64,000 nt of DNA, taken from the NCBI GenBank assembly GCA_021828865.1, contig JAJZCW010000007.1:62001-126000 (forward strand), written 5' to 3'. Source of the DNA: Bacillota bacterium (lineage in GTDB: Bacteria > Bacillota > Bacilli > Alicyclobacillales > SLC66). The position numbers and the translations under genes were made by a program. A model generated the notes under the pieces. It made no database searches and was not told where the DNA came from. It saw nothing but the letters and a program-made list of their open reading frames with translations. Of the stretch, positions 12,524 to 18,757 are shown piece after piece. Numbering within the stretch: the stretch's first letter is position 1; every line of letters begins with the position of its first letter.

Positions 12524-12664
12524 CTATTCTTTGATTTCATCCAGCATTCGCTTCACATCTTCAAGTTCTAGGCGCAATCTGCGTTGGCGTTGCAACAATA
12601 TCACCACATAGACAAACGTCCCGATCCACACCACCGCTGCTGCGGAAAACAGATAACCCAACAT
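12524..12664 (-). CDS. ccmD: CcmD-like small membrane protein
   Basis: A 46-residue protein begins two bases after the ccmC stop. It has one N-terminal membrane span (MLGYLFSAAAVVWIGTFVYV) followed by a charged helix RQRRLRLELEDVKRMLDE. That is the plan of CcmD, the small protein that stabilises CcmC/CcmE and helps release haem-loaded CcmE. Position directly after ccmABC supports the call. It is the last gene of the eight-gene operon. Confidence 0.78.
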   Translation of the reverse strand: MLGYLFSAAAVVWIGTFVYVVILLQRQRRLRLELEDVKRMLDEIKE

Positions 12665-12666
12665 GA

Positions 12667-13371
12667 TCAAGATCCTACCCTTTCGTCATACTTTGCCAGC
12701 GCATTTCTTGCCAGCTCACGAAGATCGCTCAATTCATCCCGGTCTTTCGCCATCATCGTACTGATCCAAAGGATGACCGAATAAAGGCCAAGAAATACCA
12801 GGAAACTGAACAGCAGCGTGAACACCATAATGGGAGGCATGTTGAATCCCTGCGCGGTGATCACGTTAGGATGAATGCCCCGCCACCACGTCACCGACTG
12901 ATGAATGATGGGAATGTCAATAGCTGCGATAAATCCATAGACAGAAGCCACTTTCGCTGCCCGTTCACGATCTGCAATGGAGGCACGAAGCAAAATGTAC
13001 GCAAGGTACAAGAACCACAAGATCAGCGTGGTGGTAAGTGTAGGATCCCACGTCCACCAGGTATTCCATACCGCATCTCCCCAAATCGAGCCGGAAATCA
13101 GCACAAAGGTAGTGTACACGACCCCAATCTCCGCAGAGACGCGCGCCAATTGATCCCAAATCCACTTTTTTCTCACCAAATAAATCAGACCGAGTAGCGC
13201 TGTGACACCAAATGCAGTAAAGGCCACGACCGCACTCGCCACATGAAAATACATGATGCGAACGACATTGCCCATCTGCGCCTCAGGAGGCGAAGCGATG
13301 AAATCCATATACTGGCTAATAATCATGCCTATGCCAAGAAGCGCGACCAGTGTCCATTGCCATTTTTTCAT
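12667..13371 (-). CDS. ccmC: CcmC haem-handling protein
   Basis: CcmC is a six-span membrane protein that attaches haem to CcmE. The 234-residue product has about six spans and the tryptophan-rich WWD motif WNTWWTWDPTLT near residue 105 that binds haem at the outer face. Histidines in YFHVASA (about residue 45) and PIIHQSVTWWRGIH (about residue 170) fit the two conserved axial ligands. It lies between ccmB and ccmD with gaps of 2-3 bp. Confidence 0.92.
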   Translation of the reverse strand: MKKWQWTLVALLGIGMIISQYMDFIASPPEAQMGNVVRIMYFHVASAVVAFTAFGVTALLGLIYLVRKKWIWDQLARVSAEIGVVYTTFVLISGSIWGDAVWNTWWTWDPTLTTTLILWFLYLAYILLRASIADRERAAKVASVYGFIAAIDIPIIHQSVTWWRGIHPNVITAQGFNMPPIMVFTLLFSFLVFLGLYSVILWISTMMAKDRDELSDLRELARNALAKYDERVGS

Positions 13372-13374
13372 TCC

Positions 13375-14046
13375 TTACACCTCCGCAATGAAATCATACA
13401 ATAAACCAGGCAACACAAGAAACAATATGTCATACGCAGCAATCACTGCCCACCAGACGCCTTTGCCCCAATTGCCCTGAAGCATCGAAGAAGTCACTTC
13501 AACGACGCCAAGCAATAGCGGCACGCTGAGTGGGAAAATCATGATGGGCACAAGTATTTCCCGCAAGCTGCTTGTCAAGGCAAGGCTCGTCAGTAATGCT
13601 CCTACCGCCACAAACCCAAGCGTCCCCATCAGCAGCACGAGAATGATGGGCCCCCACGCCAACTGGATCGAAGTACCGAGCACCACGCTGTATAGTGGCA
13701 CCAGCACCACTTCCATGACCACTACGAAGAGCAGGTGGCTCATCACACGGGCATAAAAAAGGACGCTCCTGTCCGTTGGCACCATGGTCGCACCGTAAAT
13801 GGCGCCGTCCCATCGCTCTTTATCATCCTGCCGATTCAAGCTGAAAAGTCCTGCCATCATAATTAGCAGCCACAAAAGCCCTGCATCGGCAAAATGCGTC
13901 ATGTTACTGCTCCCATAGAGTACGAGCCCCATCAGAAACACTAGTAACAACGCAAATGACAACGAAGAGATGAAAAGCTGTTTGGTGCGCCATTCGATTC
14001 GCAGGTCTTTGCCCACCATCGACCATAACACTCGCCAAAAAATCAC
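13375..14046 (-). CDS. ccmB: CcmB haem exporter permease subunit
   Basis: The 223-residue membrane protein has six hydrophobic segments and the CcmB-type N-terminus WSMVGKDLRIEWRTKQLFISSLSFALL. With CcmA it forms the ABC unit that releases haem-loaded CcmE from CcmC/D. The conserved FSLNRQDDKERWDGAIYGA segment at about residues 73-91 is typical of CcmB. Its start overlaps the ccmA stop by four bases. Confidence 0.9.
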   Translation of the reverse strand: MIFWRVLWSMVGKDLRIEWRTKQLFISSLSFALLLVFLMGLVLYGSSNMTHFADAGLLWLLIMMAGLFSLNRQDDKERWDGAIYGATMVPTDRSVLFYARVMSHLLFVVVMEVVLVPLYSVVLGTSIQLAWGPIILVLLMGTLGFVAVGALLTSLALTSSLREILVPIMIFPLSVPLLLGVVEVTSSMLQGNWGKGVWWAVIAAYDILFLVLPGLLYDFIAEV

Positions 14047-14687
14047 TGTGAATCTCCTTCAATCAGCCTTCCTTGAGCTAATTTCACCGTTCTAACCGGC
14101 AATTCCCGAAATGCGTTCGCCTCATGGCTCACGAGCAGAATCCCTGCTCCTGCCTTTTGCAAGTTCTCGAGCCAAAAAGTCAAGAGTTGGCTACTCGCCG
14201 CATCGAGTCCATCATAAGGCTCGTCCAAAAACAGTACCTCCGGCTGATGTAAAAAAGTCCGCGCAATCGCCAACCGTTGTTTCATGCCTTTTGAAAACGC
14301 TTTAACGAGGACATGCTTGTCGCGATGCAACCTGACTTGTTCGAGCCCATCATGCACTTGCTTGCGTGCGTCTTTCAGTCCATAGATTTTTGCATAGTAA
14401 AGTAGGTTTTCCTCAGCCGTTAGTTCTCCATATAAAAAAGATTCATCAAGCAAGACACCAATTCGGGAGCGAAGCCTTGAACTGGGTCGGTTACCAAACC
14501 AAAGTACCGTCCCCTTACCAGGAGTGCTCATGCCAGCCGCCACCTTGATGAGCGTGGTCTTGCCGCTGCCGTTTCGCCCCACCATCCAAACAATTTCGCC
14601 TGCATCGATGGTCAAATCGGCCCCGTTCAACACGGACCGATGGCCTAAACTTTTTTGTACTCCAACCAGTTCTAACAGATGGTTCAT
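14043..14687 (-). CDS. ccmA: CcmA ABC-transporter ATPase subunit
   Basis: A 214-residue ABC ATPase. Walker A is GRNGSGKTT near residue 37; the signature region reads FSKGMKQRLAIARTFL and Walker B VLFLDEPYDGLD. The signature has FSKGM in place of the usual LSGGQ, a variation common in exporter-type and Ccm ATPases. It overlaps both neighbours by four bases, so stoichiometric translation with ccmB is expected. It powers release of holo-CcmE. Confidence 0.92.
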   Translation of the reverse strand: MNHLLELVGVQKSLGHRSVLNGADLTIDAGEIVWMVGRNGSGKTTLIKVAAGMSTPGKGTVLWFGNRPSSRLRSRIGVLLDESFLYGELTAEENLLYYAKIYGLKDARKQVHDGLEQVRLHRDKHVLVKAFSKGMKQRLAIARTFLHQPEVLFLDEPYDGLDAASSQLLTFWLENLQKAGAGILLVSHEANAFRELPVRTVKLAQGRLIEGDSQ

Positions 14688-15589
14688 GGTTGTTGCTCAT
14701 TTCTCATTATCGATTCCACCTGAATAACGCGTTGTTTCAGTCGTTCACGCCGATGCTTATAATCCTGTTCCTGAAGTTCACCACTCGCATAGGCCATCTC
14801 CAGATCTGCCCAGTGTTCCATTAATTCAGACTTTTGTTTGCCAAGTGCTGAGGCTGAAAACTGCTTGCGTCTCCCACCTTGTCTGATTGAAATGATGCCG
14901 ATGATCAGAACCAGTGCTACCAACAGCAAATTGCCAATAGCCTCCAAGTCCGCTACGCGTGGCCCGTACGAATTTAGCACGGGAATATTCGGAAGTGGAG
15001 GCGCCTGTCTGCCATTCGCGGTGGGAAGGAGCGCCACCGAGACAGTCCAAGAGGAATTAGCGGGAATCGCCAACCGGGCAAACTGACGGAACGCCTGGTT
15101 CCCTGACATGATCGATTGCGAGTCCGTCTGAAATCCTCCTTGCGAGGATACCGTAAGCGCCCCCTCCGGGATGACGAAAAATAGTTGTCTTACAGGCATT
15201 GGTTCCTTCCACGTCAGTTCCGTCCCATTTTGATTGAGCGGCGCGCCAAATTCCACGGCAAGCGTAGTTACACCATTCGCCTTGGCAGTAAATCGAAGTG
15301 CGCCCGATTTTGCGAGGCTGATCTGCTTCACTGAGCCAGCCACCACATGCGGATTTTGCGCACCTGTCGGCAACTGATACAAGGTGGGATACGCATGTCC
15401 ATTATTCTGGACCGTGACGGTCGCAAGCACCTGCAAGGTGCCACCGCTTTTTGAGGGTACTGCCAACACCTGTTCATTTGATATATAAAGGGCATTGCCA
15501 TTCTCTGTCTGTGCTAGCGCAGGAGTTGCCAATAAGATCACTGGCAACAAAGTGACGAAAAGCATGGCCCACTGTTTCCACTTTTTCAT
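14684..15589 (-). CDS. signal-anchored protein of unknown function in the ccm operon
   Basis: The 301-residue product has a Sec signal peptide (MKKWKQWAMLFVTLLPVILL, Ala-X-Ala cleavage near residue 27), an exterior domain of about 190 residues with beta-rich pattern, one membrane span near residue 215 (GNLLLVALVLIIGIISI), and a cytoplasmic charged helix ending LMEHWADLEMAYASGELQEQ. That last helix resembles the C-terminal tail of the adjacent CcmF. Its place between ccmF and ccmA with four-base overlaps implies a part in System I. It could stand in for the haem-lyase partner CcmI or CcmH; that is a guess. Confidence 0.6.
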   Translation of the reverse strand: MKKWKQWAMLFVTLLPVILLATPALAQTENGNALYISNEQVLAVPSKSGGTLQVLATVTVQNNGHAYPTLYQLPTGAQNPHVVAGSVKQISLAKSGALRFTAKANGVTTLAVEFGAPLNQNGTELTWKEPMPVRQLFFVIPEGALTVSSQGGFQTDSQSIMSGNQAFRQFARLAIPANSSWTVSVALLPTANGRQAPPLPNIPVLNSYGPRVADLEAIGNLLLVALVLIIGIISIRQGGRRKQFSASALGKQKSELMEHWADLEMAYASGELQEQDYKHRRERLKQRVIQVESIMRNEQQP

Positions 15590-17802
15590 GGTGTAGCCTC
15601 ACGCCTCCTTGCCAGAATCCCTTGTAATTCAATTTCGACTGCCTGCTCCAGGTCATGACCGGATAGACTGGTATCCTGCAGCTTTTTAACGGTTACTAAT
15701 TTTTCACTGCGAAGCGCCCTGTACTCCGCTTCAGTGATTTTTCCCATGTGCCAGTCATACTCCAGATCGCGTAAATCTTTATAGAGCAAATCCTTCTCTT
15801 CTTCACTCACGTCTTCGCTCTCAGTCAGTCGACGTCTTCGCTCAGGCCATAATCCGATGAGTGTTCCCACGATGTAAAGATAGCCACCGTACCAGATAAA
15901 ACTGACAAGTGGATTGATATGGATTTCAAACAAAGCCTGTCCAGTATTGTAATCCGCACCGTCTAACACCGCATATAAATCAGTAAAAGAAGTACTATAC
16001 AGACCAATATTAGTGGAAGGGGAATCTCCATTTTCAAAAAAGGATACACTTGGTTGAAGCACGCCAAATAAATGTCCAGTACGGGCATTCGTGACAAGAA
16101 GTGATCCGATCAGCAGCACCTGTCCAGGTTGATGGGAGGTATTGAGTCCGTGATACTCGAAATCGTAATTGCCAAGCCTCACAGTTTGACCCGGCTTCAG
16201 ACTGATCGTCTGCTGCTTGGCATAACCGCCTGAACCTGCAAAGCCAATCACCATGACGAGCACCGCAATGTGAACAATGTACCCGCCGTAACGCCTGCGA
16301 TTTTTTGCGACGAGCCGCCAAAGGGAAATGCCAAACCCTTCTTTAGTAATCTCACTTCGTGCCTGTACCCCTGCCAAAAACTCTTGCAAAATGACGACGA
16401 GCACAAAAAATGCAACGACCAGCGTGAAATAGGACAGCGCCCCTTGGTAGGCAAAAATCCGCAAAATCACACCTAAAATCAAGGCTGCAAGCGCCGGCAA
16501 ACGCAGCAGTTTCAATGTTTTTGAAAGGCTGGCCTTGCGCCAGGCAAGCACTGGCCCAACCCCCATCCAGAGGATCAAGACTACACTGATCGGGAGCACC
16601 ACCGCATTGTAAAATGATCCGCTCACCATCATGGAATTACCGGTAACCGCCTCCGAAACAAGCGGAAATACCGTGCCCCAAAACACCGCAAACAAGATAC
16701 CGATAAATAACACATTGTTGAATAAAAAACCGCTTTCCTTTGAAACGGCCGACTCGAATCTGGTACTGCTGCGAAGCACCGGGGCATGCCAAGTGATCAA
16801 CCCTACGGCCAGCACGAACATGATACCGACAAAGGTGAGAAAAACCGTCCCCATTTCCCCATTTGCAAAAGCGTGAATCGACCATAGCAGCCCGCCTCGG
16901 GTAAGCGCGGTGCCAAAGAGGGTCAACAGGTACGTCAGGCTAATCAATATGACATTCCAGAACTTGAACATATTTTTACGCTCTTGAATGATCGCAGAGT
17001 GCAAAAAGGCGGTGGCCGCCAGCCACGGCATCAGCGCCGCGTTTTCAATCGGATCCCACGACCAGTATCCGCCCCACCCCAGTTCCTCATACGACCAATG
17101 TGCACCGTAAATAATGCCACAACTGAGAAACAGCCATGAGATCAGCGTCCATTTGCGAGTAGCACGAAGCCATGCGGCATCGGATTTTTTTAGGATGAGC
17201 GCCGCCATTCCATAAGCAAAAGGAACGAGGAACCCGACATAACCAAGATACAGGTTGACCGGATGAACGGTCATTCCGGGATTTTGCAAAAGTGCATTAA
17301 GCCCATTTCCGTTGATTGGTGGATGAGGAAGTGTCACAAAGGGACTTGCAAAGAAATTCAGAACGATGACAAAAAAGAAAATGACAAATGACATGATGGC
17401 AGAAACAACGGGCAACAACTTTTCGCTGCCTTCATGACGGGTAAATCGCACTACCAGCGCATAAAGGCTGGTGATGAGCAGCCAAAAAAGAAGTGATCCT
17501 GCATTGCCTCCCCAGAACGCGGCAATCCGATAAACCAGTTCCAACCCTCTACTCGTATAGTCTGCTACATAGGCATAATGAAAATTCAATGTGATGAGCA
17601 GTGTCAGCAAACACAAAGAAGCGACGAGCGTCAGCACAAATTGAAGCACGGTGCCGAGTTTCGCCAGCACGCTTAATTTCAAATTGTCATGCCTACGCGC
17701 AGACAGGATGGAGGCGATAAAAGCGTAGGGAACCACAACAAGCAGCAGGTACAACGCGCCCTGCCCAAGCGTACCGATCAAAGTCACCCCTCCTGCAATC
17801 AT
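15586..17802 (-). CDS. ccmF: CcmF haem lyase subunit
   Basis: CcmF takes haem from CcmE and attaches it to apocytochrome c. The 738-residue protein has more than twelve spans. The WWD motif WGGYWSWDPIENAALMPW is at about residue 242, and the flanking conserved histidines are in NPGMTVHPVNLYLGY and TAFLHSAII. After the last span there is an extra cytoplasmic tail of about 90 residues, with LLYKDLRDLEYDWHMGKITE, of the kind found in bacterial proteins annotated with CcmH/CcmI-like ends. The start ATG is at 17802, 24 bp after ccmE. Confidence 0.93.
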   Translation of the reverse strand: MIAGGVTLIGTLGQGALYLLLVVVPYAFIASILSARRHDNLKLSVLAKLGTVLQFVLTLVASLCLLTLLITLNFHYAYVADYTSRGLELVYRIAAFWGGNAGSLLFWLLITSLYALVVRFTRHEGSEKLLPVVSAIMSFVIFFFVIVLNFFASPFVTLPHPPINGNGLNALLQNPGMTVHPVNLYLGYVGFLVPFAYGMAALILKKSDAAWLRATRKWTLISWLFLSCGIIYGAHWSYEELGWGGYWSWDPIENAALMPWLAATAFLHSAIIQERKNMFKFWNVILISLTYLLTLFGTALTRGGLLWSIHAFANGEMGTVFLTFVGIMFVLAVGLITWHAPVLRSSTRFESAVSKESGFLFNNVLFIGILFAVFWGTVFPLVSEAVTGNSMMVSGSFYNAVVLPISVVLILWMGVGPVLAWRKASLSKTLKLLRLPALAALILGVILRIFAYQGALSYFTLVVAFFVLVVILQEFLAGVQARSEITKEGFGISLWRLVAKNRRRYGGYIVHIAVLVMVIGFAGSGGYAKQQTISLKPGQTVRLGNYDFEYHGLNTSHQPGQVLLIGSLLVTNARTGHLFGVLQPSVSFFENGDSPSTNIGLYSTSFTDLYAVLDGADYNTGQALFEIHINPLVSFIWYGGYLYIVGTLIGLWPERRRRLTESEDVSEEEKDLLYKDLRDLEYDWHMGKITEAEYRALRSEKLVTVKKLQDTSLSGHDLEQAVEIELQGILARRREATP

Positions 17803-17826: not shown

Positions 17827-18222
17827 TTAGTTTTTCGCCGTATATTTGGATGGACATTTAATCAGGAGATTCGTTGCTTTTAGCATCCCGTTTGGTTCCA
17901 TGGTACCAGTTACAATTACTGGCCAGCCATTCGCAAAATCACTTGGTCGCAGTCCATGATAGGCTACGGTTAGCGATGGCGCCCCTGTTTGATCCTGGAT
18001 GGCAAATTGCAGGTATTGCGTGGATGAATTCCATACCACGCTGTTCGGGGTGATTTTACCGCTCACGGTCAGCGCTTTCCCGGACTTGGGGTGTCCCTGC
18101 AACGTCTGATTGACAGTCAGGTAATAGCTCGATGCCTTCGCCACTCCCATCACCACTAACCCAACGATTACCAGTGCCACCAGCACAAAGGCAGACCACA
18201 GTTTGACACGAGTACTCAACAC
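17827..18222 (-). CDS. ccmE: CcmE haem chaperone, cysteine (CxxxY) type
   Basis: CcmE carries haem covalently on the outside of the membrane. The 131-residue protein has an N-terminal anchor and an OB-fold (LTVSGKITPNSVVWN, LTVAYHGLRPSDFANGWPVIVTGTM). In most bacteria the haem-binding motif is HxxxY; here the tail reads LLIKCPSKYTAKN, so the covalent ligand position is Cys and the motif is CxxxY. This form is known from archaea and some sulfate reducers with non-standard Ccm systems. The neighbouring CcmH-like protein also lacks its own cysteines. Confidence 0.88.
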   Translation of the reverse strand: MLSTRVKLWSAFVLVALVIVGLVVMGVAKASSYYLTVNQTLQGHPKSGKALTVSGKITPNSVVWNSSTQYLQFAIQDQTGAPSLTVAYHGLRPSDFANGWPVIVTGTMEPNGMLKATNLLIKCPSKYTAKN

Positions 18223-18253
18223 TGATCACCACTTTTCGTCAAATAATCAACAC

Positions 18254-18757
18254 TCACAGATACTGACGCCACTCTTTTTCTTCAAGCAGGGAAGAATCCT
18301 CTTCTTCCACATCCTCAATCCCTTGAATAAGTGGCCGATGAAGACTTTTTTGATAGGCAAAAAGACCACCAAGTCCAATTGCAAGTATCGCCCCAAGAAT
18401 CGGCAGCACCCATGCCCATGCACCAAATCCTTTTGCCGGTGGATTGGCAAGCACCGTGGGACCATAATCTGTTTCGAGTTGAGAAAGAATCTGTTGGTTG
18501 CTTAATCCTTTATTCAGCATCACTGCAATCTGACGTTTGATCGTCCATGCTGCGGGAACGTTTGAGCTCGCCACTGTCTGGGTGGTCGTATCTCCTGGCG
18601 CATGAAGTTGCGATTCGATCGCAATCAACCGCTCTTCGGGCGAGCTGCTTTGATTCGCACCTACCATACCGGAAAAATGCAAAACCAGCACCACGATCAC
18701 CAGGATCAGGCCGGCAATTAGTACCGTCAGCCAGACATTTTTACGCTCACTATACAA
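18254..18757 (-). CDS. CcmH-like protein without the LRCxxC motif
   Basis: The 167-residue product has a TM anchor at about residues 10-30, then a region matching the CcmH helix: SSNVPAAWTIKRQIAVMLNKG, LSNQQILSQLETDYGPTVLANPP and a second span near residue 115. In CcmH this domain starts with LRCxxCQ, the redox pair that reduces the apocytochrome. Here the equivalent stretch reads APGDTTTQTVAS and no cysteine occurs anywhere in the protein. It is the first gene of the ccm operon. It probably keeps a structural role with CcmF but cannot do thiol chemistry. Confidence 0.75.
   Translation of the reverse strand: MYSERKNVWLTVLIAGLILVIVVLVLHFSGMVGANQSSSPEERLIAIESQLHAPGDTTTQTVASSNVPAAWTIKRQIAVMLNKGLSNQQILSQLETDYGPTVLANPPAKGFGAWAWVLPILGAILAIGLGGLFAYQKSLHRPLIQGIEDVEEEDSSLLEEKEWRQYL

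Follow-up and report, generated by a model that had tools for sequence, protein, structure and literature searches.

A cysteine-free, CcmH-derived protein in a probable System I*-type cytochrome c maturation operon of Alicyclobacillales

Described maturation systems and the operon in the window

The locus analyzed here can be compared with System I*, a form of cytochrome c maturation reportedly described by Allen 2006 and Goddard 2010. In System I*, CcmE carries a CxxxY motif (mostly CPSKY), the operon lacks ccmG, and CcmH is either missing or kept; a 2011 review records CxxxY CcmE in Firmicutes and the retention of CcmH in about a third of the CxxxY systems (PMC3601427). The present locus shares the CcmE type and the absence of ccmG from the operon, but its CcmH-like gene is present without the cysteines, and ResA/CcmG-like proteins are encoded beside CcdA, away from the operon. 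Unlike genomes with System II (ResB/ResC), this genome yields no match to ResB (PF05140). There is a long-standing debate over whether CcmH serves mainly as a reductase or mainly as the component of the haem lyase that binds apocytochrome (PMC3884852, PMC3601427, PMC10746174). In known CcmH, the first cysteine of the active site is buried and the second, exposed one attacks the substrate (PMC3884852); the cysteines of E. coli CcmH can be dispensed with under some conditions (PMC3420020), no maturation takes place once its N-terminal domain is lost (PMC3601427), and a part for CcmH in positioning CXXCH for CcmF has been proposed (PMC10746174). Known CcmH binds a CXXCH peptide with an affinity in the low micromolar range (PMC3884852). 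The CcmH-like proteins of Geoglobus and Ferroglobus resemble the one described below in lacking LRCxxC, in adjoining CcmF and in coming from organisms with a CxxxY CcmE; however, they are cysteine-rich, with displaced cysteines in an LX[S,N]C[E,D,H]C motif (PMC4600277), whereas the CcmH described here lacks both catalytic cysteines.

The window, that is, the whole 64,000-nucleotide stretch of contig JAJZCW010000007.1 (assembly GCA_021828865.1) that was analyzed, contains a complete ccmH-E-F-orfX-A-B-C-D operon on the minus strand. The operon is tightly packed, with most genes overlapping or separated by a few bases. Pfam and NCBIfam profiles assign CcmC, CcmB, CcmF, CcmE, CcmH and CcmD, and an ABC ATPase occupies the place of CcmA; no ccmG is found within the operon.

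18254-18757, minus strand: ccmH-like gene, 167 aa, N- and C-terminal TM helices, no cysteine (PF03918, model fold, dN/dS)
18590-18607, minus strand: LHAPGD, the equivalent of LRCPKC (C25 to Ala, C28 to Asp), from the profile alignment to 2hl7 and 2kw0
17827-18222, minus strand: ccmE, 131 aa, CxxxY type (PF03100, 83 bits)
17842-17859, minus strand: KCPSKY haem-binding motif, C-terminal in CcmE, read from the sequence and invariant in the order
15586-17802, minus strand: ccmF, 738 aa, WWD motif WGGYWSWDPIEN intact (PF16327, PF01578; solved CcmF 6zmq, E 8.6e-99)
15586-15828, minus strand: CcmI-like C-terminal extension of CcmF (weak TIGR03142 match, E 0.0086, residues 641-700)
14684-15589, minus strand: orfX, 301 aa; signal/TM segment, exoplasmic beta domain, TM segment, CcmI-like helical hairpin
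14043-14687, minus strand: ccmA-like ABC ATPase (PF00005; TIGR01189, 123.7 bits, below the cut-off of 131.6)
13375-14046, minus strand: ccmB (PF03379, 86.7 bits)
12667-13371, minus strand: ccmC (PF01578, 98.8 bits)
12524-12670, minus strand: ccmD, 48 aa, TTG start, overlapping ccmC (TIGR04391 CcmD_alt_fam, 42.7 bits, cut-off 24)

The orfX product is an uncharacterized, conserved operon member whose beta domain resembles ribophorin I and M1-aminopeptidase N-domains; a tail similar to its CcmI-like hairpin is also present on CcmF, and the window CcmF in turn shows a match to a small CcmI-like ORF that stands alone in locus L117. An earlier note on this DNA had missed ccmD and orfX, along with CcdA and two adjoining ResA/CcmG-like WCPPC thioredoxins that are encoded on another contig of the same genome. 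Its statement that ccmG is lacking thus holds for the operon but not beyond it, and the search that it proposed for further CxxC-bearing CcmH or CcmG proteins recovers these two thioredoxins and no other CcmH.

Identity and conservation of the cysteine-free CcmH

The protein of the window matches the CcmH family profile PF03918 well above the curated cut-off (54.6 bits against 25). The profile built from CcmH of the order matches two solved CcmH domains, 2hl7 from P. aeruginosa at E 1.6e-10 and 2kw0 from E. coli at E 2.3e-10; in these alignments, LRCPKC lies opposite L[RH]APGD. An AlphaFold model of moderate confidence (pLDDT 75, pTM 0.48) contains a three-helix bundle for which the top Foldseek matches are the same two structures, with a probability of 1.00 each and TM-scores by target of 0.70 (2hl7, E 1.3e-3) and 0.66 (2kw0, E 1.0e-2); this search returned nothing at E 0.001 and no credible match beyond these two. 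Given the agreement of the profile and fold matches, descent from CcmH is well supported. Along with the three-helix domain, the TM anchor and the ccmE/ccmF neighborhood are shared with the solved proteins, but the protein of the window has an additional N-terminal TM helix, and in the order the C-terminal tail mostly ends in (W/L)R-x-(Y/F)L. As the earlier note had read, LHAPGD stands at the site of LRCxxC and there is no cysteine in the entire protein, so that the CcmH skeleton has outlasted its thiols and thiol oxidoreductase activity by its own side chains is chemically excluded. Because the defining thiol pair is absent, the protein is best labeled as CcmH-derived and cysteine-free. The best NCBIfam match is NrfF (TIGR03147), but the score of 43.8 bits is far below the cut-off of 159.2, and the gene belongs to a full ccm operon.

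The order, here called Alicyclobacillales after its named relatives, is a presumably acid-loving group of bacteria and is represented by 59 searched genomes (G000-G058), among which CcmH is found in 20 and CcmE in 25. Both catalytic cysteines are missing from all 22 CcmH proteins encoded in these 20 genomes, and all share the motif L[HR]-[AVI]-P-[GSD]-[DE]. The position of the buried cysteine is taken by Ala (17 proteins), Val (4) or Ile (1), and that of the exposed cysteine by Asp (17) or Glu (5); with hydrophobic residues at the buried position and acidic ones at the exposed position, the substitutions fit a retained fold rather than random decay. Three of these proteins (L002, L004 and L005) contain one unpaired cysteine each, in helix 1. 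The CcmE proteins encoded next to ccmH carry (K)CPSKY in 20 cases out of 20; hence, the alignment across relatives that had been suggested on the basis of the single locus extends both of its readings, the KCPSKY motif (positions 17842-17859 in the 83-bit PF03100 match) and the missing thiols, to the order as a whole. Comparison of the window with its nearest relative gives a dN/dS of 0.083 for ccmH, within the range of 0.04-0.10 seen for its operon neighbors, which indicates purifying selection. This value and the shared substitution in 22 of 22 proteins rule out a sequencing error, chance or a pseudogene. The gene is kept in 20 of the 25 genomes that encode CcmE; the remaining five have the operon without ccmH, so CcmH is dispensable in some members of the order. 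One genome (G049) additionally encodes, at L023, a second, divergent cysteine-free CcmH (DLRAPDDPSTVAESS) that is directly followed by its own CcmF; no CcmE was detected between these two genes.

CcmE and CcmH types across Bacillota

With a single exception, all CcmE proteins of Bacillota that were read are of the CxxxY type. The exception is a CcmE-like protein encoded at L146:8628-9047 (minus strand), in which the haem-binding region reads WTASSKQDHYE, that is, neither CxxxY nor HxxxY. Thus, the earlier note overstated the unusual character of the CxxxY CcmE, which is the norm in Bacillota and had already been listed for Firmicutes (PMC3601427), and about a third of the CxxxY systems are recorded as retaining CcmH (PMC3601427). 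The type of CcmE does not dictate that of CcmH either, because CPSKY CcmE is also encoded beside cysteine-bearing CcmH (L127, L137, L145, L157 and L192).

The systematic survey of CcmH loops covers Bacillota. Some lineages have LRCxxC-type pairs (e.g., L121, L122 and L124), many CcmH proteins have CxxxC with a third cysteine (LMCTDGCGM..CDN), and other Bacilli have HPPGC..C, TPGGC..C or a single cysteine. Accordingly, LRCxxC, which had been taken as the local starting point, is not the form found in most Bacillota relatives; these have CxxxC and a third cysteine, or GC...C. Such relatives share the operon type and the CPSKY CcmE with the order but keep one to three cysteines. Outside the order, G482 alone among the Bacillota CcmH read lacks any cysteine (YPPGTTDNMTADYAP). 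In the CcmF tree, the order forms one clade (support 100/99) next to the family with GC..C (G512, G487 and G500), and G482 branches before both; given this placement, the final cysteines disappeared on two separate occasions, barring a regain of GC..C. Within the order, ccmH is missing in A. contaminans and, separately, in the group of A. herbarius, A. shizuokensis, A. kakegawensis and G039, where the operon starts at ccmE; whole-genome searches found no CcmH in any of these genomes. G039 had a long branch in the first CcmF tree and was excluded from the second one. Taken together, this distribution suggests a stepwise dismantling, from CxxxC..C through GC..C to no cysteine, in the order and separately in G482, followed by two deletions of ccmH inside the order. 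Several other Bacillota loci (L128, L130, L131, L134 and L153-L156) encode CcmH paralogs with [AS]PD[FRW]CGK/M..C motifs, and no ccm gene was detected in their vicinity.

Of the two parts of the observation, the CxxxY CcmE is already known and the cysteine-free CcmH is the real finding, with priority not proven and Bacillota as the group scanned. No description of a natural cysteine-free CcmH was found in the open literature searched; the nearest are the Geoglobus CcmH-like proteins (PMC4600277). Annotation that relies on LRCxxC will miss CcmH in Bacilli.

A proposed structural role for CcmH and its alternatives

The genome of the window encodes one CcmE and one CcmH; no second copy of either, and accordingly neither a standard CcmH nor an HxxxY CcmE, was found in the assembly, which is 94% complete, and here the earlier note holds. 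Its view of System I as uncommon is accurate for Bacilli, where PF03918 is matched in only 30 of 399 genomes, but not for the order: no ResB match is present in any of the 59 genomes and CcmE is present in 25, which makes System I the normal system of this group. A cytochrome c domain with CXXCH is present in three of the proteins encoded in the genome of the window. Of the 59 genomes of the order, 24 have both CcmE and cytochrome c, 32 have neither and 3 have only one of them (Fisher 4e-13, uncorrected for relatedness). As the sole detected system, and in view of this co-occurrence, the operon likely matures the CXXCH cytochromes of its own genome. Live-cell spectra of Alicyclobacillus ferrooxydans, in which a-type cytochromes are dominant (PMC5143472), weigh against haem attachment driven by the operon.

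We favor, as rather more probable than the alternatives below, the explanation that CcmH of the order is a thiol-free, structural component of a System I*-type Ccm that is the only detected cytochrome c maturation system of the order. The observations behind it are the sequence, the fold similarity, the conservation, the purifying selection, the genomic exclusivity and the co-occurrence with cytochromes. CcmE and CcmF are expected to act as in System I* (PMC3601427): CcmABCD would load haem onto the cysteine of CcmE (CPSKY), from which CcmF would attach it to the CXXCH motifs of apocytochromes. CcmH, which keeps the three-helix exoplasmic domain and the membrane anchors, is predicted to bind CcmF and the apocytochrome. 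Incapable of thiol-disulfide exchange, with L[HR]-[AVI]-P-[GSD]-[DE] in place of the former active-site loop, it would presumably be redox-inactive in vivo. Because the shape is kept and the two working sulfur atoms are lost, CcmH probably holds or positions the substrate rather than reducing it. Reduction of the apocytochrome may be left to CcdA and the ResA-like thioredoxins, or might rarely be needed if the substrate is mostly reduced. Neither DsbB nor VKOR was found when looked for in this genome, so the organism may catalyze extracellular disulfide formation only weakly. Among the genomes of the order, DsbB is present in 4 of the 20 with cysteine-free CcmH and in all 5 that encode CcmE and lack ccmH (Fisher p 0.002, uncorrected for relatedness); the genome of the window and its family f1 are without DsbB. 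The absence of DsbB is ruled out as a simple cause of the cysteine loss by the four genomes in which DsbB and cysteine-free CcmH coexist.

The main rival to the structural role is that CcmH is vestigial and in the course of being lost: once the pair of CxxxY CcmE and CcmF stopped needing CcmH, first the thiols and later the gene itself would have disappeared, and the protein still present in most species would be slowly decaying. The two separate losses of ccmH nested in the cysteine-free clade are what this scenario predicts, and a Ccm system from Desulfovibrio that has no CcmH is functional in E. coli (PMC3601427); nevertheless, strong purifying selection on ccmH, the new motif conserved across two families and the retention of the gene in most CcmE-bearing genomes make slow decay rather unlikely. 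If the new loop were instead catalytic or ligand-binding, the acidic residue that replaces the nucleophilic cysteine could provide acid-base or binding chemistry in surroundings assumed to be very acidic, where thiolates are scarce. All 22 proteins indeed have D or E at the second position, equivalent to the exposed attacking cysteine of known CcmH (PMC3884852), but the independently cysteine-free G482 has PPGTTD, without an acid at the exact position, and such a function appears improbable. Least probable of all is the reading implied by the earlier note, that the Cys form of CcmE directly caused the thiol loss because haem carried by a thioether needs no CcmH thiols: the two features occur together in the order, but most Bacillota with CPSKY CcmE retain a cysteine-bearing CcmH.

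The structural role can be taken a step further, although only tentatively: a wholly thiol-free CcmH with the loop remade from CPxC to [AVI]P[GSD][DE], reached by stepwise loss of cysteines in at least two lineages of Bacilli and followed in some by deletion of the gene, might be direct natural evidence that CcmH serves System I at its core by holding or positioning the apocytochrome rather than by reducing it. A whole order that keeps CcmH under selection without thiols amounts to a natural experiment in which the reductase role and the binding role are uncoupled, with a comparison set of close relatives that have one, two or three CcmH cysteines and of others that lack the gene; culturable species such as Alicyclobacillus pomorum and A. 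ferrooxydans are available.

A separate observation concerns contig C9 of the genome that contains the window, where L082:6015-8162 (minus strand) encodes a methyl-accepting chemotaxis protein of 716 aa, with a C-terminal TM helix and a cytochrome c domain (CSGCH), possibly a haem-bearing chemoreceptor. In G002, a genome of the same genus, a frame of 728 aa that matches cytochrome c may be similar to this protein.
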